The notes under the pieces were generated by a model that saw only the letters and a program-made list of their open reading frames with translations, did not search any database and was not told the origin of the DNA. DNA of 64,000 nucleotides from Orenia metallireducens (lineage in GTDB: Bacteria; Bacillota; Halanaerobiia; Halobacteroidales; Halobacteroidaceae). The translations under genes and the position numbers were made by a program. Below are positions 38,427 to 51,686 of this stretch, in pieces (within the stretch, counting starts at the first letter, position 1; every line of letters begins with the position of its first letter). The stretch lies in NCBI RefSeq assembly GCF_001693735.1, contig NZ_LWDV01000010.1:740552-804551 (forward strand), in the 5' to 3' direction.

Positions 38427-38939
38427 ATGGCTAAAATATTAATTATATTAAATGAAAGAACTCTATATCTTTATCAGAACAATCAAGTGGTCAGATCCTT
38501 CCCAGTAGCTATTGGTAAACCAAGTACGCCTACCCCTACAGGGAACTTTTCAATTATTAATAAGCTTAAGAACCCTTATAATAAAGCCTTAGGTACCCGA
38601 TGGATGCAATTTACTCACCAGATGCATGGCATTCATGGCAACAACCAACCTTCATCAATCGGTAAAGCTATATCAAATGGATGTGTTAGAATGTATAATA
38701 AAGATGCAGAGTTTCTTTATGACAGAGTAAGTATTGGAACCCCTGTTGAAATCAAACAGAATCGTACAGGTTTAGGTAATGGCAGTAATCAATCTTATTA
38801 TATAGTTAAAGCAGGTGATACCCTTTATCAGATTGCTAAAAAATTCAACACTACTGTTGAAAAAATTATAAAAATTAATCCTAATATTAAAAATAAAAAC
38901 AGTATCTATCCCGGACAACGGATTAAAATCCCAGATTGA
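38427..38939 (+). CDS. L,D-transpeptidase with C-terminal LysM
   Basis: 170-aa YkuD-fold enzyme. Catalytic region: GIHGNNQPSSIGKAISNGCVRM with His 70 and nucleophile Cys 86; the N-terminal segment (KILIILNERTLYLYQNN) is the usual start of the domain. A single LysM repeat (about 124-169, YIVKAGDTLYQIAKKFN) binds peptidoglycan. There is no signal peptide, unlike most exported YkuD proteins, so it may act inside the mother cell on the spore surface as some YkuD-type spore proteins do. A strong AAGGAGG precedes ATG 38427. RNase J follows 63 bases later on the same strand. Confidence 0.9.
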   Translation: MAKILIILNERTLYLYQNNQVVRSFPVAIGKPSTPTPTGNFSIINKLKNPYNKALGTRWMQFTHQMHGIHGNNQPSSIGKAISNGCVRMYNKDAEFLYDRVSIGTPVEIKQNRTGLGNGSNQSYYIVKAGDTLYQIAKKFNTTVEKIIKINPNIKNKNSIYPGQRIKIPD

Positions 38940-40720: not shown

Positions 40721-42355
40721 TTATCCTCTAGGTCTTCTAGGTTCATCACGATCATCAATTATACATCTTGGTATAATTAACTTCTGTCCTACTTCTAAAT
40801 AATCTGGATTATCTAGGTTATTTGCATCAACAATAGCATCTACTGTTGTTCTATAACGTCTAGCTATCTTATATAAGGTATCTCCAGCTTGAACCACATA
40901 GATTATCTTAGATGGTCGCTCACACTCGTCTCTGTCTACTACAGGAGATACAACAACTATATCTGTAACAATAGTTAACTGTCTGAAGTTAGTTACTTTA
41001 GCAAACTTTCTTAAGGTAACTACCAATTCAACGGTTCTATTATTTAACCTGTTACCTTTAACCTTCTTAATTTCAATGTTACTGTGGCAAGACATGCCAG
41101 CCTCTGCCTCAGGAATATTGATAAAGTTTTCAATATTAAATGGACGCTGGAAATAATGAACTGGTTGTGTTCCTGGAGTTTCATCAGCTGTTGTATCTGC
41201 AACATAAAGGACACTACCTTCTCCCTCACTTGTAACTACTACTCCACCATCTTCTACAATACATGTTGTATTCGATAGCTGCGCATTTGTCTCCAAAATA
41301 CGTTCAATATTAGGTTTTACATCTGGTACAATTAGGTCTTCAGTAACAGTTTCAGTTACTGTATCTTCTCCAATTACCTCTTCTACTCTTAATAACTCTT
41401 CCTCTAACTCAACTCTATCACTATCAATCCCTGTTACTACCATCACCTGTTTAGGTTCAGTAACTTTAACAAATACTTCTAGTATAGCTCTTACCTCTAC
41501 TTGCCTATTACCATTTGTGATTGTATAGTCCCATCTCTTTACATTAATATCGGTAAATGAAGTCATGTCTTCGTCTGCATCTGGAACATCAATAACTTCT
41601 GAAAATGTAAGTCCCCCTTCAAAGAAGTGAACTGGTTGTGTTCCTGGAGTTTCATCAGCTGTTGTATCTGCAACATACATAACACCTACTTCAAACTCTC
41701 CATCTACAATAACTGCACCATCAGTTATTTCAACATTCTTATCCTCTAACGCTCCTCCCTCCACCTTTAGAACTCTTTCAATTGGTGGCTTAACAGTAGG
41801 AACATCAATAATCCCTTCTACTACTACCTGATAAGTATTCTCTCCAACTACATTCTCAATTCTTAACAATTCTTTCTCTACTAATTCCTCTCTAATACCT
41901 GTTACATCAGTAATAATGTTCATTTGTCGATAATCAAATACCTTAGCAAATTTCTTAAGAACAACAGTTACTTCTACTGTTCTCTCATCAACAAAATCAT
42001 AGCTAGACCTTAAGATATCAACATCAACATAGGCACTCATATAGTCCTCTGCTTCAGGGATATCAACGAAATTGGTAAAAGTCATCTCTCCATGGAAATA
42101 ATGTACTGGCTGATCACCTTCAGCAGTATCAGCTACATACATAACACCTACTTCAATCACACCATCAATTGTTACTCCACCTTCTTCAACAGTTACCTCA
42201 GTGGATTCAATCTTTGTGCTTACCTCTAAAATTCTCTCTATATCTGGTTTTTCTGCAACAGGTATTGGAACCTCTTTAGTAATGGATTCTCTAACTGTAT
42301 CTTCTCCAATGACATATTCAACTCTTACTTGTTCTTCTTTAAAATTTATTGCCAT
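40721..42355 (-). CDS. SipL-like SPOCS-LysM spore coat protein
   Basis: 544-aa protein with three SPOCS (DUF3794) units: each has an EELLRVEEVIGEDT-type lead, a GVIEVGVMYVADT strand, a PVHYF strand and an FAKV segment (approx. 1-165, 165-330, 330-480). A LysM repeat follows (about 486-530, YVVQAGDTLYKIARRY), then a basic tail. The same architecture is seen in SipL of Clostridioides difficile, which binds SpoIVA to anchor the coat; B. subtilis SafA plays an analogous part. The duplications contain near-identical 40-60 bp DNA stretches (around 41160 and 41640). A sigma-E-like CATATATT lies upstream. Start follows AAGGAGGAATAAA. Confidence 0.85.
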   Translation of the reverse strand: MAINFKEEQVRVEYVIGEDTVRESITKEVPIPVAEKPDIERILEVSTKIESTEVTVEEGGVTIDGVIEVGVMYVADTAEGDQPVHYFHGEMTFTNFVDIPEAEDYMSAYVDVDILRSSYDFVDERTVEVTVVLKKFAKVFDYRQMNIITDVTGIREELVEKELLRIENVVGENTYQVVVEGIIDVPTVKPPIERVLKVEGGALEDKNVEITDGAVIVDGEFEVGVMYVADTTADETPGTQPVHFFEGGLTFSEVIDVPDADEDMTSFTDINVKRWDYTITNGNRQVEVRAILEVFVKVTEPKQVMVVTGIDSDRVELEEELLRVEEVIGEDTVTETVTEDLIVPDVKPNIERILETNAQLSNTTCIVEDGGVVVTSEGEGSVLYVADTTADETPGTQPVHYFQRPFNIENFINIPEAEAGMSCHSNIEIKKVKGNRLNNRTVELVVTLRKFAKVTNFRQLTIVTDIVVVSPVVDRDECERPSKIIYVVQAGDTLYKIARRYRTTVDAIVDANNLDNPDYLEVGQKLIIPRCIIDDRDEPRRPRG

Positions 42356-44021: not shown

Positions 44022-44306
44022 CTAGCTTTTGTCAGTCTTAACCTCTTCCGTACCTAAAAATAGTGCTTTAGAACCATCTTTAAATTCCTTAACTCCCATT
44101 CTCTCGTCATTTAATCTAACATCTCCTTTCTCATCTACCTCTAAATTGAAATCTTCTCCCAAAATCTCTTCCAAAGAGTTCAAGTTTAAAATTCCTGAAG
44201 ATGAAGGATCACAATATATTATAATAATGTTCTTCTGGTTAACAGATATATCTGAGTTATTCTCTTGTGTTATGTCTTTAATTAAATGGTTAATATTATC
44301 ATCCAC
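44022..44306 (-). CDS. Hypothetical acidic protein, 94 aa
   Basis: Not recognised. A polar N-terminus (DDNINHLIKDITQENNSD) leads to a small alpha/beta segment (KNIIIIYCDPSSSGILNLNSLEEIL, VDEKGDVRLNDERMGVKEF, ALFLGTEEV). One Cys. Ribosome site AGGAGGGTTAGA precedes ATG 44306. It lies 55 bases after the Asn/Gln-rich gene with no terminator between, so the two probably form an operon in the spore-envelope region. Confidence 0.6.
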   Translation of the reverse strand: MDDNINHLIKDITQENNSDISVNQKNIIIIYCDPSSSGILNLNSLEEILGEDFNLEVDEKGDVRLNDERMGVKEFKDGSKALFLGTEEVKTDKS

Positions 44307-44978: not shown

Positions 44979-46007
44979 TTAAGCTTCAACTTCATCTGTA
45001 TCTTCTTCATACTCATCATCTTCAACTACATTTACTTGTTCACTCTCTGCATTAGCTTGATTTATGGTTACATTATTATCTGCATTTACACAAGCTTGAG
45101 GTTGTTTATTATCTTGGTTAATTTGAGCAGTCTGTTCACAATCACCAGGACCATCTACTTCTGCTGTTGCCGTAGCTGTGGAATCAGCATTTGCATCTGA
45201 ATCACTCTCACTCTCTGCTTCAGCTTCTGATTCTGACTCAGATTCACTCTCACTTTCTGCTTCAGCTTCTGATTCTGACTCAGATTCACTCTCACTTTCT
45301 GCCTCAGCATCTGCATCGGCTTCTCCTATACCTACTCCTACTCCTATTGCATCAGCATTTGCGTCACTATCACTTTTACTATCTGCATCAGCACAAGCAT
45401 TTGCGTCACTTTCACTATCTGCATCTGCATCAGCATCGGCATTTGCATCACTTTCACTTTCACTATCTGCATCAGCATTCGCATCACTATCACTTTCACT
45501 ATCACTTTCACTATCTGCTTCTGAATCTGACTCACTGTCTGCATCAGCTTCAGACTTACTTTCTGATTCTGATTCACTCTCGCTTTCACTATCTGCATTT
45601 GCATTAGCTTCTACGTCAGCATTAGCATCTACATTGGCATCTATATCTGCATCAGCATCTAATCCTACATCTGCATCTACGTCTGCATCAGCATCCAATC
45701 CTACATCTGCATCTACGTCTGCATCAGCATCCAATCCTACATCTGCATCTACGTCTGCATCAGCATCTAATCCTACATCTGCATCTACGTCTGCATCAGC
45801 ATCTAAGTCCACCTCTGTATCTGCGTCTACGTCTGTATCAGCATCCAATCCTACATCTGCATCTACGTCCACCTCTGTATCTGCTTCTACATCTGCATCT
45901 GCGTCTGCACTAGCTCCAGCTAAAGCTGCTGCTACTGATTCAGCTACAGACTCTGATATAGCTTCAATCAAAGCATCTAAATCAATATCAATGTCAATTG
46001 GACTCAT
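44979..46007 (-). CDS. Asp/Ala/Ser/Glu repeat protein
   Basis: 342-aa extremely acidic low-complexity protein. A short helical head (about 1-33: [20 protein letters not shown]) is followed by DADxDVDAD repeats (about 35-140), including four near-identical 12-residue units [12 protein letters not shown], then Ser/Glu and Ser/Asp dipeptide tracts with ANADAD spacers (about 140-280), then an INQ-rich tail with two Cys. No signal peptide. Alternating Asp suggests calcium binding; such proteins often cover surfaces. A sigma-K-type promoter lies about 40 bases upstream. Start is ATG 46007 seven bases after GGAGG. Confidence 0.75.
45650..45870. repeat. 36-bp tandem repeats
   Basis: Near-perfect 36-base units (repeat seed GCATCTAATCCTACATCTGC on the plus strand) repeated about four to five times inside the Asp-repeat gene, encoding the 12-residue [12 protein letters not shown] units. 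Synonymous TCT/TCC differences show the copies are slightly diverged. Likely hot spot for length variation. Confidence 0.85.
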
Positions 46008-46037
46008 TAGCATTCCTCCTTTTTTTAGTATTTGGTA

Positions 46038-46064
46038 TATATTATGTATTTAGGAAAAAAGTGT
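46038..46064 (-). promoter_or_regulatory. sigma-K-type promoter of the Asp-repeat gene
   Basis: Minus strand AC, 16-base spacer, CATAATATA: full match to AC-16/17-CATANNNTA. Confidence 0.6.
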
Positions 46065-46108
46065 TACAAATAATAGAGATTTTTTATTACAAACTATAGA
46101 TAAAAAAA

Positions 46109-46144
46109 AGCTTAATTAAAATATAATTATATTTTAATCAAGCT
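46109..46144 (-). terminator. terminator of the 284-aa CC-domain gene
   Basis: 36-base inverted repeat with one mismatched pair (AGCTT then ATTAAAATAT), followed by TTTTTTTT on the minus strand. Confidence 0.85.
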
Positions 46145-46176
46145 AAAATATCGCAGAAATTGACTTATTAATCTAA

Positions 46177-47031
46177 TCAGAAAGTTTGAATACTAAAGGG
46201 TTCAGGACTACAAACTCCAGTCAATTTTTCTGTATGGTTCTCCACTTCCTCTTCATTAGAAATTATATTCATTGTAGCCATATCTTCTTTTACAGATAAT
46301 TCAAATTCACATTCTCCCCTATCTTCTTCATTAATATATAAAAGAGCAGTACCAGTGATCTTAACTTCTTCTCCTTGCTCATTGTAAATAACTTCGTTAA
46401 CTTCACCTAGAGATGAAGGAGATAATACTAACTCTATAGTCTTTTCTCCTACATTATCTTTATGGAAATAATAAATAAAGTTCTCTTTGTCAGTACCTTC
46501 ACTATGAACTACCATTGATAATTCAGTTATATTGACCTTGCTGACTGATAACATCGCTCTTTTACCCATTACATTAATTCTAATCTTTCTTCCATATCCA
46601 TATACATTACATCTAATATTATCTTGATCTTTTCGATAGACTTGATAATCTTCATCATAATCAACTTCTTCTATACTATTTGGTGCATTTCTATTATCTG
46701 ATTGACCTACATCCTGTAGTCCAAATCTATCTAAATCCTCTCTATCATCTATCTCTTCAAATATCCTTCTCTCATCTTCTTCAAAAACTATAATAGCACA
46801 GATACAGTCAATTGGTATATAGGTTCTTTCACACCTGTCTTTACCTTTATCTCTGTCTTCAACCAACACGACTATAGATTCATCAATTATTTCACAGATA
46901 CAGCCTCTATGCCTACAGCAATCCCCACCAGATTGAATAATAATACTAACTCGCTCTGCTTCAATCTTTAAATCATCTAACAACTTTATCAATTCTTTAC
47001 TACAATAACTTCTTTCAATTAATCCACTCAT
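46177..47031 (-). CDS. CC-core domain protein with beta-rich C-terminal domain
   Basis: 284 aa. Residues about 15-92 are a copy of the cysteine-rich core seen in the small neighbours: VSIIIQSGGDCCRHRGCICEI, then CERTYIPIDCICAIIVF. An acidic linker (EEDERRIFEEIDDRED) follows, then a beta-rich domain (about 140-284) with YGRKIRINVMGKRAMLSV, FIYYFHKDN and ELSVKEDMATMNII. No signal peptide. Start chosen at ATG 47031 (8 bases after GGAGGGG). A sigma-K-like promoter with one -10 mismatch lies 25-55 bases upstream, so late mother-cell expression is likely. Function not known; outer coat or exosporium role is inferred. Confidence 0.65.
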   Translation of the reverse strand: MSGLIERSYCSKELIKLLDDLKIEAERVSIIIQSGGDCCRHRGCICEIIDESIVVLVEDRDKGKDRCERTYIPIDCICAIIVFEEDERRIFEEIDDREDLDRFGLQDVGQSDNRNAPNSIEEVDYDEDYQVYRKDQDNIRCNVYGYGRKIRINVMGKRAMLSVSKVNITELSMVVHSEGTDKENFIYYFHKDNVGEKTIELVLSPSSLGEVNEVIYNEQGEEVKITGTALLYINEEDRGECEFELSVKEDMATMNIISNEEEVENHTEKLTGVCSPEPFSIQTF

Positions 47032-47056
47032 CTTATTCACCCCTCCTTTCCTAAGT

Positions 47057-47084
47057 TATAATACGAAATACTCTAATAATTTGT
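47057..47084 (-). promoter_or_regulatory. sigma-K-like promoter of the 284-aa gene
   Basis: Minus strand AC, 17-base spacer, CGTATTATA (one base off CATANNNTA). Confidence 0.45.
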
Positions 47085-47148
47085 GAATAAAAGAAGAATC
47101 AAAAATATTTCTTTTAAATAGTTAAAACAATAATCTCACCACATAAAA

Positions 47149-47175
47149 AAGAGAGTTGCTTTTAACACCTCTCTT
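47149..47175 (-). terminator. terminator of the 285-aa CC-domain gene
   Basis: 7-bp stem (AAGAGAG/CTCTCTT) with a large loop, followed by TTTTTTATG on the minus strand. Confidence 0.6.
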
Positions 47176-47188
47176 AAAACAATCTCCC

Positions 47189-48046
47189 TTATAAGACTTT
47201 TAACTTTCTTTCAACCTCAGATTTGGAATTTGAGTCTGAATCCCTAGAATCATTCTCTGTCTCTTGATTTTCATCTATAGCAATTTCATCACCTGAATTC
47301 TTCTCTCTTTTAGCTGCTATCTCCTTATCTTTATCCAGCTCTTCTATAGCAGATGAATCATCATCTACTTTCATAATATTAGCCTCATCATCTACATTAT
47401 CATCACTGTTACTATATCTATTTCTTCTTCCACCATTGTGCAACCTAACTGCTACTATCTTATTAGTTGATATCTTAATTCGACTATTATCTTCATTTAT
47501 CAGGACTATAAAATCACCGTAGACTTCACATAAGATACCGACTATCTTACAACAATCTGAACCACTAATAACTGTTACCTCTACAAAATCAAAATTTTCT
47601 GCATGTTTAGCCAATTCATCTTTAAAAATATGAGACTCAGCACTATTATAATTATTAATAAAAATATCTTCTTCTTTCTGTTTAAGTAACTCCTCTCTTA
47701 ATTCACTTTTCAACTCTGCTTTCAATTCTTCCTTTAAACTATGTATTAATTCCCTTTCAAATTCACTTCCTTGACTTCTTCCCCTTTTAGACAATTTTCT
47801 GTCACCCCCTGTCTTTTTCCCAGCTTCTTGAGGCTCCAATTTCAAATTTATCTGCTTTAACATATCTAATACTTTATCAAGCTCCTTCTCACTAATATCA
47901 ATATTAGAAGCATCAAATTGAGAAAAATCATTTAATGAAGGAGTAGGAGGATTACTTACCATTGGATTATTCTGATTTAATAACTCGTTGACTAGCTCTT
48001 CTAATAATGGTTCTAGAAGTTCTAAATCATAATCACTCTCCACCAT
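47189..48046 (-). CDS. CC-core domain protein with long flexible flanks
   Basis: 285 aa. An acidic helical start (LELLEPLLEELVNELLNQN), a Pro/Ser-rich linker, a long charged coiled-coil-like helix (about 95-130, HSLKEELKAELKSELREELL), then a reduced copy of the core domain (about 153-203: VEVTVISGSDCCKIVGILCEV, INEDNSRIKISTNKIVAVRL) that keeps CC and one Cys but loses the C-terminal ICA cysteine, then a disordered acidic tail. It lies 80 bases after the 90-aa gene with only a weak terminator between, so they may share a transcript. Ribosome site AAGGAGG. Confidence 0.6.
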   Translation of the reverse strand: MVESDYDLELLEPLLEELVNELLNQNNPMVSNPPTPSLNDFSQFDASNIDISEKELDKVLDMLKQINLKLEPQEAGKKTGGDRKLSKRGRSQGSEFERELIHSLKEELKAELKSELREELLKQKEEDIFINNYNSAESHIFKDELAKHAENFDFVEVTVISGSDCCKIVGILCEVYGDFIVLINEDNSRIKISTNKIVAVRLHNGGRRNRYSNSDDNVDDEANIMKVDDDSSAIEELDKDKEIAAKREKNSGDEIAIDENQETENDSRDSDSNSKSEVERKLKVL

Positions 48047-48078
48047 CTTTAGACCTCCTTCCTAATAATTTTGATATT

Positions 48079-48112
48079 AATCGATTGGATAATCTAGATT
48101 ATCCAACCGATT
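48079..48112. terminator. hairpin between the 90-aa and 285-aa genes
   Basis: 34-base inverted repeat with one mismatch (AATCG, TTGGATAATCTAG). No T-run follows on the minus strand, so termination may be partial. Confidence 0.55.
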
Positions 48113-48127
48113 AAAACAATAATTTAT

Positions 48128-48400
48128 CTAATCTCTAGGTTTACGTTTACACTCTCTTGCTGGATGAACTAAAGCACAGATTTTATCTAATAAAATATAA
48201 GTTCTGACACATACATGATTACTATCAATTAATACTAAAAAGCAATCATCAATTTCACAGATGCATCCTGTTATTTCACAACAACCTTCACCAGATTGAA
48301 TAATAATAGTTACTTCTTCATTAGTATCTTTGATTTTATTTAATAATTTAACTAAGTCATCTCTACAAGAATCATATCCTTGGATTTCAACTTCACTCAT
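48128..48400 (-). CDS. Small CC-core protein, 90 aa
   Basis: A free-standing copy of the core domain: CRDDLVKLLNKIKDTNEEV, VTIIIQSGEGCCEITGCICE, DDCFLVLIDS, VCVRTYILLDKICALVHPA. Nine cysteines in 90 residues. Pattern of strands (V.I..G / G.I..I.D..V.LI / YI....I.A) suggests a small beta barrel. The end resembles the VDLxCFCAI ending I recall for ExsY/CotZ-type exosporium proteins. Start is ATG 48400; the upstream ATG overlaps AAAGGAGGG. A sigma-K-type promoter sits 34 bases upstream. Confidence 0.7.
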   Translation of the reverse strand: MSEVEIQGYDSCRDDLVKLLNKIKDTNEEVTIIIQSGEGCCEITGCICEIDDCFLVLIDSNHVCVRTYILLDKICALVHPARECKRKPRD

Positions 48401-48433
48401 ATCTCTTTTCCCTCCTTTCATTTAAAACTAATA

Positions 48434-48461
48434 CATACTATGACTCTATATCGGGATATGT
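48434..48461 (-). promoter_or_regulatory. sigma-K-type promoter of the 90-aa gene
   Basis: Minus strand AC, 17-base spacer, CATAGTATG (last base off consensus). Confidence 0.55.
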
Positions 48462-48505
48462 TAATAAAAATAATTGGTTAAAATTTATATAATTACTATT
48501 ATCCA

Positions 48506-48655
48506 TAGCTGCATTTTGCTGGATGGACAGTGCACATATCTTATCTAGAAAAATATAGGTAATTGCATATATACACCTTTATCTTAGTTAATAATTTCGT
48601 CAATACCTTAAAATAAAAATCTCCCATTCAGCCCACCATTCCTACATCATCTCTC
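48506..48655 (-). pseudogene. decayed CC-core paralogue
   Basis: In the gap between the 90-aa and 82-aa genes the minus strand retains pieces of the family: RDDV, then VLTKLLTKIK (compare LVKLLNKIK), then directly YLYFLDKICAL followed after a one-base shift by HPAKC (compare TYILLDKICALVHPA). The middle, including the CC and GCICE motifs, is deleted, and a stop interrupts the front. A complete sigma-K-type promoter is still present upstream. Confidence 0.7.
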
Positions 48656-48671
48656 TGCTGCTAGATTTATA

Positions 48672-48699
48672 TATAATATGATTCTTTCCTCAAATATGT
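48672..48699 (-). promoter_or_regulatory. sigma-K-type promoter of the decayed paralogue
   Basis: Minus strand AC, 17-base spacer, CATATTATA: perfect match to AC-17-CATANNNTA. Confidence 0.6.
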
Positions 48700-48705
48700 T
48701 AAAAA

Positions 48706-48731
48706 AAGAGATAAGATTAATCTTATCTCTT
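48706..48731. terminator. terminator of the 82-aa gene
   Basis: 26-base perfect palindrome (AAGAGATAAGATT and inverse) followed by TTTTT on the minus strand. Confidence 0.88.
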
Positions 48732-48765
48732 TATCTTAATTATTTCACTTTATAAGTTTCTCTTT

Positions 48766-49014
48766 TTAATATTCGTCACAACAAGTTTGTGCTGGATGAA
48801 CAAGAGCACAGATACAATCAAGTAAGATATAAGTTCTAATACAATTTCCATGCTTAGTATCAATTAATACTACAAAACAATCATCAACCTCACAGATGCA
48901 TCCTGTAAATTCACAGCAGTCCTCTCCTGACTGAATGATAATATCAACCTGCTCATCAGTATCCTTTATCCTCTCCAATAAACATCTTAAGTCATCTCTA
49001 CAAGTATTAGCCAT
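48766..49014 (-). CDS. Small CC-core protein, 82 aa
   Basis: The most cysteine-rich member: 12 Cys in 82 residues. TCRDDLRCLLERIKD, VDIIIQSGEDCCEFTGCICE, DDCFVVLIDT, NCIRTYILLDCICALVHPA, then TCC near the end. Highly similar to the 90-aa protein, clearly paralogous. Such Cys density points to disulfide cross-linking in an extracellular or spore-surface shell rather than to a soluble cytosolic enzyme. ATG 49014 follows AAGGAGGTAGG. A sigma-K-type promoter lies about 60 bases upstream. Confidence 0.72.
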   Translation of the reverse strand: MANTCRDDLRCLLERIKDTDEQVDIIIQSGEDCCEFTGCICEVDDCFVVLIDTKHGNCIRTYILLDCICALVHPAQTCCDEY

Positions 49015-49072
49015 CTTCTGCCTACCTCCTTATTAATAGTAATGGTAATTAAATTTCTTTCTTTTAACAATA

Positions 49073-49100
49073 CATAATATGACCTCTTTAACCAATCTGT
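49073..49100 (-). promoter_or_regulatory. sigma-K-type promoter of the 82-aa gene
   Basis: Minus strand AC, 17-base spacer, CATATTATG (last base off consensus). Confidence 0.55.
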
Positions 49101-49196
49101 TAATAAAAAATACTGTAAATATCTATTCCATAAGGTAATTTTAGATATATTAATTATAATTTTCATTTAATACTTAATTAAGTTAAAAGCCACTAC

Positions 49197-49385
49197 TTAA
49201 GAGCTATATTCTTCATCAAATAATTTAATATAGTCATCTTTAATCTCATCTATATCTACATCAACCTCTTCTTTTTTTAGGTAACTTCTATTATACAGAT
49301 TTCCAATCAAATAATATAAAAATAATTTACATAAAAAATATAAAATTATAATAAATATTATAATTATAAGATAATCTCCCCCCAT
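49197..49385 (-). CDS. Small membrane protein, 62 aa
   Basis: N-terminal hydrophobic helix (about residues 5-28, LIIIIFIIILYFLCKLFLYYL) followed by a basic stretch and an acidic tail (EEVDVDIDEIKDDYIKLFDEEY). Not recognised. ATG 49385 has GAGGAGG 10 bases upstream, and a perfect sigma-K-type promoter lies 103 bases upstream, so it is probably a mother-cell protein, perhaps in the outer forespore membrane or tethered coat. Confidence 0.6.
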   Translation of the reverse strand: MGGDYLIIIIFIIILYFLCKLFLYYLIGNLYNRSYLKKEEVDVDIDEIKDDYIKLFDEEYSS

Positions 49386-49487
49386 TGACTGATAACCTCC
49401 TCTTTAATATTTATTGATGACTTATATTAATCACTAAACTACTGACTACTTGCCCACCAGTTATAGCTCTAAAACCCTCTCCTTTTA

Positions 49488-49515
49488 TATTTTATGAAAA
49501 AAGTTGAAATAATGT
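49488..49515 (-). promoter_or_regulatory. sigma-K-type promoter of the 62-aa gene
   Basis: Minus strand AC, 17-base spacer, CATAAAATA: perfect match. The rest of 49386-49653 shows nothing else. Confidence 0.6.
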
Positions 49516-49706: not shown

Positions 49707-50507
49707 TTAATAACCTAAGTCAGCAAATTCTTGAGCAAACATCTTACCATAAGGACCACCATCAATAATACCAATTCCCACATGGGTATAATCAGGATGA
49801 AGAATATTATCTCTATGGCTTTGACTCTTCATTAATTCATTATGTGCCCATTCTACATTAGGAGCTCCTGCTATGTTTTCACCAGCTAAGTAATAATCAA
49901 TGTTCAATCTTTGCATCATATCAAAAGGTGAACCATAACTAGGAGAAAAATGGCTAAAATAATCTTGATCAATCATATTTTGACTCTTCGCTCTAGCTAC
50001 TTGAACCAATTTAAAATCAATTTTAAGAGGATTTAACCCTTCTTTAAGTCTTTCTTTGTTTAACATGTCTAGCATAAGCTCTTCATCTGCATTTAACGAA
50101 TATACTTTCATCTCTGTCCAATCCTTATTATCAGTTATCTCTAAAGCATCATTTTCTTGATGATTAATGACTCCATCATCTTGTGTAACCACTTCAATCT
50201 CTACTGGAGGGGGCTGATTATCTGGTGAGGTCTCTTCTTGTGATACCAAATCATCACTTTGCTCACCATTACCATTTTGAATAGCAGAATTATCAATTGG
50301 ATCAGCTATAGGTTCTGAAGTAGGATTCTTATCACCTACCATCCTTCCTAGAAAGAATAATGCCAAAAGAGCTTTTAAAACATTGAAAATATTATCATTT
50401 AAATCTACTCCTCCAAAGGCATAAGCAGTACCTGTACTAACTAAAACTATTGTTGGCATAATTAGTGCACAAATAAGTATCCATGTTATTATATTCTTTA
50501 GTCTCAT
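49707..50507 (-). CDS. CAP (SCP-like) domain exported protein
   Basis: 266 aa. N-terminal signal peptide or anchor (about 8-32, ITWILICALIMPTIVLVSTGTAYA), a second hydrophobic patch (about 40-55), a Pro/Glu-rich linker, and a C-terminal CAP domain (about 140-265): EELMLDMLNKERLKEGLNPL, SQNMIDQDYFSHFSP, AGENIAGAP, SQSHRDNILHPDYTHVGIGI. Family members in spore formers (YkwD, YlbC, SafA-associated) are common but their activity is not defined. Ribosome site GGGGGGAG before ATG 50507. Flanked by the protease gene and the coat-region genes. Confidence 0.9.
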   Translation of the reverse strand: MRLKNIITWILICALIMPTIVLVSTGTAYAFGGVDLNDNIFNVLKALLALFFLGRMVGDKNPTSEPIADPIDNSAIQNGNGEQSDDLVSQEETSPDNQPPPVEIEVVTQDDGVINHQENDALEITDNKDWTEMKVYSLNADEELMLDMLNKERLKEGLNPLKIDFKLVQVARAKSQNMIDQDYFSHFSPSYGSPFDMMQRLNIDYYLAGENIAGAPNVEWAHNELMKSQSHRDNILHPDYTHVGIGIIDGGPYGKMFAQEFADLGY

Positions 50508-50678: not shown

Positions 50679-51686
50679 TTAGAAGGTTACATTTAAGGCA
50701 GTTAGGACATTATTTATCTTATTACAGATTGTACTCTTATCAGAACCTGCAAAAAGTAGACCTACAGCCTCATTATCTTTGTTTACAACTAGTGCACCAC
50801 TATCACCAGGTTTAGAAAAAGGCTCTGTTATAATTTGGTCTGTAAAGATAGCAGATTCCTCAGCAGACAATTGAACTTTAATAGTAGCATTAACAGCCTT
50901 AATCTTAGCTGATGTCAGTCCACTTGTTCTACCACTCTTTCTAACTAACATCTTTAATTCTGGTTCAGCTACTCCTGCTACTTCCCCGATTCCTAAAATC
51001 TCTGAATCAATCAACTCAACATCTTTGGGTTTAGCAACAGCACAATCTACTTTATTATTTATTGATGACCTTTTAACCTCATAGGGTGCTCCTATTAATC
51101 TTCCTAACCCCTTTAATACTTGGTTAAATCCAGACATCAAAGGACAAGCAGGTGGCTGATCATTATAAATAGGTACAAAACGCTCTAAATAACCTATTAC
51201 ATCTTCCTCTTCATTACCACCATCATAACTACCTGGTTGCAAGATAGGATCTCCTTTACTTGCTCTACCATCACTACCATTTGTGATATTAGCTAAAACA
51301 TGATTGTTTGATAAGATAAGTGGGTTTCCAGTCTTTTTGTCTTTAACCACCGCTCCAAAAGTACCTGCTGTAATCTTATAATGACCAATACTGACTCCTG
51401 GTTGAGCAGGTCGTAATTTAGTTATTCTTATCTTATCCTCGTTTGCTAATAACTCAACTTTACCTACCTCAATAACATCAGTCTTCTTATCCTCTAGACT
51501 CTGTGGTATAATATGCCCTTCATTTAAACTTTGGGCATCTAACTTACTCTCTACTAGGACCACAACACACTCTTCATTAGTCCTTCTACCTCCAATTTCT
51601 TTATATCCTTGACCTACTCCAACTACATTATCTAAAGAAAGAATATTCTCTAAGTACTTATCTATTATGTTCTGAATCTCATTCAT
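50679..51686 (-). CDS. Trypsin-fold serine protease without signal peptide
   Basis: 335 aa. Chymotrypsin-like triad visible: His 129 (LSNNHVLA), Asp 214 (NKVDCAVAKP), Ser 296 (FSKPGDSGALVV). N-terminal extension (about 1-90) includes VVGVGQGYKEIGGRRTNEECVVVLVE, typical of Nal1/S1-like bacterial proteins where this part precedes the protease domain. No export signal, so it may act in the mother cell or be released at lysis. In the position of yabG (a coat-processing protease in Bacillus) next to veg, though it is not homologous to YabG. Ribosome site GGGGGGAC is 11 bases before ATG 51686. Confidence 0.85.
   Translation of the reverse strand: MNEIQNIIDKYLENILSLDNVVGVGQGYKEIGGRRTNEECVVVLVESKLDAQSLNEGHIIPQSLEDKKTDVIEVGKVELLANEDKIRITKLRPAQPGVSIGHYKITAGTFGAVVKDKKTGNPLILSNNHVLANITNGSDGRASKGDPILQPGSYDGGNEEEDVIGYLERFVPIYNDQPPACPLMSGFNQVLKGLGRLIGAPYEVKRSSINNKVDCAVAKPKDVELIDSEILGIGEVAGVAEPELKMLVRKSGRTSGLTSAKIKAVNATIKVQLSAEESAIFTDQIITEPFSKPGDSGALVVNKDNEAVGLLFAGSDKSTICNKINNVLTALNVTF

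Follow-up and report, generated by a model that had tools for sequence, protein, structure and literature searches.

What do the small cysteine-rich proteins encoded on the minus strand of a 64,000-nucleotide stretch of the Orenia metallireducens genome build? Four genes of this stretch (C10:740552-804551, part of a 3.47-Mb genome and called the window in the following) have in common a domain of ca 70 residues, here called the core, which a sequence-only reading had assigned to a disulfide cross-linked spore-surface layer. The organism is a halophile and an anaerobe, and endospores are known in the genus Orenia. We put the probability at roughly 0.6 that the core represents a family of small cysteine-rich Sm-like beta-barrels, which the mother cell produces under the control of sigma-K and deposits in the coat or exosporium. 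The spore-coat reading is supported by computation, on the basis of the shared domain, its predicted fold, sigma-K-type promoters, a restriction to spore formers and SipL/SPOCS neighbours. The predicted fold is Hfq-like, but the promoters and the placement of the genes are spore-coat-like, and the proteins therefore probably build part of the spore shell.

The core is found at the following positions of the window (aa, amino acids):

48766..49014, minus strand: stand-alone core protein of 82 aa with 12 Cys, predicted Sm-like barrel (homology search, AlphaFold2 (AF2), Foldseek/VIA)
48128..48421, minus strand: stand-alone core protein of 97 aa with 9 Cys (homology to the 82-aa query)
47189..48046, minus strand: 285-aa protein with an N-terminal PPTPSLNDFS region, a charged linker, the core at residues 137-212 and an acidic tail
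46177..47040, minus strand: 287-aa protein with the core at residues 12-92, a charged linker and a C-terminal head domain
about 48475-48660, minus strand: decayed fifth core copy (broken frames; DNA match to an 87-aa gene of L036)

With the 82-aa protein as query, the other core proteins are retrieved with E-values of 3.7e-32 (97 aa), 2.9e-14 (287 aa) and 2.0e-5 (285 aa). The earlier claim that the proteins at 46177, 47189, 48128 and 48766 share a core, stand-alone in two of them and fused to longer parts in the other two, is thus confirmed as one and the same domain (E down to 4e-32). The fifth copy, likewise noted before, is indeed decayed: it sits between the 82-aa and 97-aa genes, and two segments of its DNA (E 1e-31 and 6e-27) align with an 87-aa gene that is intact in Orenia metallireducens L036, the alignment extending through the promoter region. 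An additional paralogue lies outside the window in the same genome (L004:1459-1707), and the contig search found the 82-aa protein at one locus only, in Orenia metallireducens MSL40, with 98% identity. The L036 strain has four stand-alone copies, compared to two in the present genome, and copies therefore come and go.

The core consensus is VxIIIxSGxxCCxxxGxxCxVxxDFxVLIxxxxxRxxIPIDxIxA. G38 and I68 do not vary among 28 diverse members, and the CC pair is almost as constant, being present in 63 of 72 core domains; the cysteine content of stand-alone copies reaches 15%. The conserved cysteines could have another role, in which the proteins simply bind metal, with the CC and GxxC residues holding zinc or iron and the spore as a mere storage place. 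Many members that have no more than about three cysteines still retain CC with a following GxxC, and the host organisms are anaerobes. However, the other cysteines vary freely in number and position, as would be expected for cross-linking more than for a fixed site, and profile scans of the window proteins and the 28 members gave no family match to a metal protein. We consider metal binding quite unlikely.

No curated Pfam or NCBIfam model claims the core. Sub-threshold profile matches, counted over the 28 members, were obtained to DUF6897 (seven), DUF2642 (four), the RimP C-terminal SH3 domain, RimP_C (three), and Hfq (two). The two DUF families, both of unknown function, give the best sequence-profile matches, which cover most of the domain in the core members scanned singly, but these members are all below the curated cut-offs. 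For DUF2642 (PF10842), the best E-value among the 28 members is 3.4e-4 and the singly scanned members have 13.0 bits vs a cut-off of 22.7; for DUF6897 (PF21838), the corresponding values are 9.2e-4 and 16.9 bits vs 23.9. No paper on DUF2642 was found in the literature collection searched. With the Hfq profile (PF17209), the best core member has an E-value of 0.088 and the 97-aa protein 11.9 bits vs a cut-off of 27. PDB sequence searches, with the profile and with a single protein, gave chance matches only, and PHROGs gave merely scattered weak matches of one member each.

The AF2 model of the 82-aa protein, calculated from a ten-sequence alignment, has a predicted local distance difference test score (pLDDT) of 79.5 and consists of a helix followed by five strands. 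This corresponds to the Sm-like small beta-barrel fold, i.e. an N-terminal helix and a five-strand barrel, and the top structural matches are all Sm-like. Foldseek and VIA-align match the model to Hfq chains with Z values of 9.2 to 10.1, and one spore protein is found among the matches, GerQ of Bacillus amyloliquefaciens (8zra; E 5.7e-3, TMq 0.66, Z 9.2, 69 residues). A profile comparison of the core with the genome's own Hfq gave a weak match, in register over strands 1-3, and relative to this Hfq the CC residues of the core are inserted between strands 1 and 2. The core is accordingly predicted to be an Sm/SH3-like small beta-barrel, for which the support is consistent but does not amount to proof.

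A likeness of the core to ExsY/CotZ had been suggested in the sequence-only reading, and this part has to be given up. The Spore_CotZ profile (PF10612), which as a control finds matches in B. subtilis, has no match in the genome, the window proteins or the 28 members, and because the 82-aa protein is predicted to fold as an Sm-like barrel, closer to GerQ and Hfq, distant CotZ/ExsY homology is not supported. Membership of the GerQ family by sequence was also rejected, as PF09671 matches nothing in the genome at E 10, nor any of the 28 members at E 1. The comparisons did not lead to a cytosolic enzyme family either: Hfq is cytosolic but is no enzyme, and the true Hfq of the genome is a separate gene.

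The likeness to Hfq comprises the helix and five-strand barrel (Z ca 10) and an Sm1-like hydrophobic pattern in register. With Hfq as the best structural match and the register of strands 1-3 agreeing with the genome's Hfq, one could regard the core proteins as sporulation-specific Hfq-like RNA-binding proteins, whose Sm rings bind RNA in the mother cell and are not coat material. A normal Hfq with the YKHAIS motif is, however, encoded elsewhere in the genome, whereas the core does not have this motif at strands 4-5, nor the YKH motif as such. The cysteines, the many copies, the Thr/Ser stalks and the SPOCS neighbours are ill-suited to an RNA chaperone, and the sporulation-type promoters are a further difference from Hfq. 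An RNA-binding function is in our judgement improbable.

GerQ (YwdL, PF09671) forms nine-subunit bowls or rings by beta-sheet completion between neighbouring subunits, and it recruits CwlJ (PMC11405398). The core family resembles GerQ in the predicted fold, the spore-coat setting and a variable extra region beside the barrel. It differs in that it has no sequence-profile match to GerQ, is cysteine-rich with the CC insertion between strands 1 and 2, and has many copies, sigma-K-type promoters and stalk fusions. As no spore protein is nearer in fold than GerQ, a recruiter of CwlJ, and as the genome, in which the GerQ profile has no match, contains nine PF07486 (SleB/CwlJ) genes, the core proteins could instead be germination adaptors, i.e. 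barrels that hold a cortex hydrolase of CwlJ/SleB type in the coat without forming a structural lattice. The up to 14 copies per genome and the high cysteine content suggest bulk material, however, and none of the nine PF07486 genes is located in the window's region, which makes an adaptor role rather unlikely.

The promoter sites found in the window are the following:

49073..49100, minus strand: sigma-K-like promoter of the 82-aa gene, ACAGATTGGTTAAAGAGGTCATATTATG, with one mismatch to AC-N17-CATANNNTA
48672..48699, minus strand: sigma-K-like promoter that survives ahead of the decayed copy, ACATATTTGAGGAAAGAATCATATTATA, a perfect AC-N17-CATANNNTA
48434..48461, minus strand: sigma-K-like promoter of the 97-aa gene, ACATATCCCGATATAGAGTCATAGTATG
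47057..47084, minus strand: sigma-K-like promoter of the 287-aa gene, with one mismatch
46038..46064, minus strand: sigma-K-like promoter of the gene for an acidic Asp-repeat protein, perfect, ACACTTTTTTCCTAAATACATAATATA

In the window, the motif is perfect at the Asp-repeat gene and at the gene of a 62-aa protein, and is present with one mismatch and in a sensible position at three core genes, while no convincing site of its own was found for the 285-aa gene. The 62-aa protein (49197-49385) is a membrane protein with the perfect motif ca 130 bases upstream, and two other Orenia genomes have homologues in the corresponding position.

The motif AC-N16/17-CATANNNTA was then sought upstream of 72 core genes of the present genome and its relatives, in comparison with shuffles. 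It is perfect at 18 of the 72 genes, vs 0.57 expected (maximum 4 in 100), and at 15 of 255 other genes of the same stretches, likely regulon neighbours included. The 72 genes include some from close relatives, which are not independent. With at most one mismatch, it is found at 49 core genes, vs 12.3 expected. With the -10 element as anchor, 31 of the 39 sites have the start of AC 18 or 19 bases further upstream, and the family promoter can be written TAACA-N15-CATATTAT[A/G], with xCATATTAT[A/G] as the -10 part. In B. subtilis, sigma-K and sigma-E have a common -10 element but differ at the fourth position of the -35 element, C vs T, and the sigma-K gap is 15 +/- 1 bp (PMC517825). At this discriminating position, 18 bases before CATA, the core genes have C in 28 cases, A in 11 and T in none. 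The -35 C, the gap of 15 +/- 1 bp and the CATANNNTA -10 element are hence all present by sequence and are enriched over both shuffles and other genes, in agreement with the earlier description of the promoters as sigma-K-like.

The occurrence of the family follows that of the coat-basement ATPase SpoIVA. Of 61 relatives, 16 have the family according to the core profile, with up to 14 copies per genome, and in a phylum-wide draw of 299 genomes it is rare (14 genomes). SpoIVA is present in 29 of the same 61 relatives, and the core in 16 of these 29 vs 0 of the 32 SpoIVA-negative ones (Fisher p 3e-7). Outside the order, the numbers are 3 of 16 vs 0 of 32 (p 0.03). In one family, f3, which is otherwise without SpoIVA in the set, the single core-positive genome, G023, is the SpoIVA carrier. 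Its sole core gene (L021:1498-1836) has an insertion ahead of the CC pair and is located immediately downstream of a gene for a histidine kinase, without a second core gene in the vicinity.

A further indication is the neighbourhood of the core genes:

40721..42355, minus strand: SipL-like neighbour with three SPOCS domains (PF12673) and LysM (profile matches)

SPOCS-LysM proteins such as SpoVID and SipL are members of the SpoIVA coat-morphogenesis network (PMC10659427). A PF12673 gene is found within 5 kb of 10 of the 25 core clusters (13 genomes), compared to 0.26 expected and none in 20000 simulations, which ignore contig breaks. The spore-surface part of the sequence-only reading is supported on three independent counts, as the promoters are of sigma-K type, the family is confined to SpoIVA-positive genomes and SipL/SPOCS genes are adjacent; a cross-linked cysteine-rich layer, the other part, is plausible and inferred.

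Several points weigh against the spore-coat reading. The input alignment for AF2 was shallow, with 10 close sequences, and the Foldseek E-values were never under 1e-3. Neither the CotZ nor the GerQ profile finds anything in the genome. Many core copies of family f2 have only about three cysteines, and heavy cross-linking is therefore not general. The related genomes are non-independent samples. Half of the core clusters are away from SPOCS genes, and the SPOCS gene of the window is 4.8 kb from the core.

Three layouts recur in the family: the stand-alone core, the PPTPSLNDFS region followed by linker and core, and the core followed by linker and head. The N-terminal region of the 285-aa type is found at seven loci, including the window. 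In relatives the linker has turned into a stalk, which has 101 Thr/Ser/Pro residues in L074 and 49 in L086, and in L071 consists of a TTTS repeat of 424 residues. Some of the stalked proteins also have a head domain, an arrangement reminiscent of a surface nap that is anchored in a cysteine-rich lattice. The head domain of the 287-aa protein has matches in L073 (2.8e-35), L076 (1.1e-5) and, marginally, L074 (0.011), and is also common to L069. As its AF2 model has a pLDDT of only 37.6, with two sequences and no confident fold, we claim no fold for it. At L071:7486-10047, two core genes continue into TTTS repeats with a separate head-like fragment downstream, as if the repeat were frame-shifted or misassembled.

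CsxA and ExsY, two cysteine-rich proteins without relation to each other, assemble into hexameric lattices, which are linked by disulfides and decorated by stalked proteins from neighbouring genes (PMC7333573). The core proteins are similar to CsxA, compared by its description in that paper, and to ExsY/CotY in being small, cysteine-rich and clustered with genes for long repetitive stalk proteins. They differ from ExsY/CotY in the missing CotZ-family match, and from the exosporium lattices in that the stalks are of Thr/Ser type and fused directly to the barrel, not collagen-like. The family may be described as having a GerQ-like predicted fold with the composition and gene neighbourhood of CsxA/ExsY. 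In O. sivashensis, the spores have gas vesicles between exosporium and coat (PMC4187190).

The best reading is that the core proteins are self-assembling, disulfide-locked ring tiles of the coat or exosporium, the rings and disulfides being inferred. The barrels would join via their free edge strands into rings, like Hfq and GerQ, and the near-invariant CC pair, together with the extra cysteines of the stand-alone copies, could disulfide-link these rings into a sheet, as proposed for CsxA/ExsY. Fused members would insert their barrel as an anchor and thereby dock their longer parts into the layer, namely the PPTPSLNDFS region of the 285-aa protein, or the linker or Thr/Ser stalk with the head in the 287-aa protein and its relatives, so that stalk and head would come to the spore surface. 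It is a tentative proposal, with odds somewhat under even, that spore formers of the Orenia order have such a lattice of Sm-barrel rings, in which the same barrel anchors Thr/Ser-stalked filaments and which is unrelated to CotY/ExsY and to collagen-like BclA.

Our literature search on Orenia coat proteins found none, and no description of the core family was found; to our knowledge, little is known of the coat and exosporium proteins of genera other than Bacillus and Clostridium. The family thus appears undescribed, and looks like self-assembling coat proteins while being Sm-like, cysteine-rich and stalk-fused. If the spore-coat reading is correct, halophilic anaerobes gain a candidate structural family, and GerQ would be one of several Sm-like barrels serving as spore building blocks. 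The small core proteins are suited for asking whether ring symmetry and cysteines suffice for a spore shell.

The acidic protein belongs to a cassette next to the 287-aa gene:

44979..46013, minus strand: acidic Asp/Ala/Ser/Glu repeat protein of 344 aa with an INQ tail, the tail common to L069 and L073
44362..44721, minus strand: 119-aa INQ-repeat protein
44022..44306, minus strand: 94-aa protein, with homologues at L069:15203-15508 and L073:9725-10009

The description of the Asp-repeat protein as extremely acidic is correct, with 77 D and 48 E in 344 aa and a computed charge of -122, although Ala (72) is about as frequent as Asp. Its gene is made of 36- and 42-bp DNA repeats. The INQ-rich proteins reported for the same stretch are also there, the motif recurring in the tail of the acidic protein and in the 119-aa protein. 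Matches of the acidic protein to ClfB/Sdr adhesins were rejected as repeat-composition matches far below the cut-off. The cassette of acidic, INQ and 94-aa genes adjoins a gene of the 287-aa type not only in Orenia but also in a second genus (L073:7538-10009), and a search of 41 genomes found the INQ protein in 3. Being limited to few genomes, the cassette is an optional addition, and the acidic INQ-tailed protein may be one to the spore surface. The calcium- or mineral-binding surface that the sequence-only reading saw in the Asp-repeat protein is a hypothetical role.

Directly upstream of the core cluster, a CAP-domain protein of YkwD type is encoded at 49707-50507 (TIGR02909, 160 bits vs a cut-off of 171). 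The gene at 50679-51686 codes for a trypsin-like protein that weakly matches NAL1 of plants (E 4e-5). The trypsin-like gene beside the YkwD gene and the core cluster is conserved in most f1-family loci. Near the SipL-like gene, an L,D-transpeptidase is encoded at 38427-38939, whose LysM matches the SafA/ExsA coat-assembly domain (TIGR02899, below cut-off). At L073:12552-15635, a 1028-aa repeat protein has a SPOCS domain at its end and is followed by a run of small SPOCS-related genes; these SPOCS-ended proteins are possibly surface proteins anchored by their SPOCS domains.

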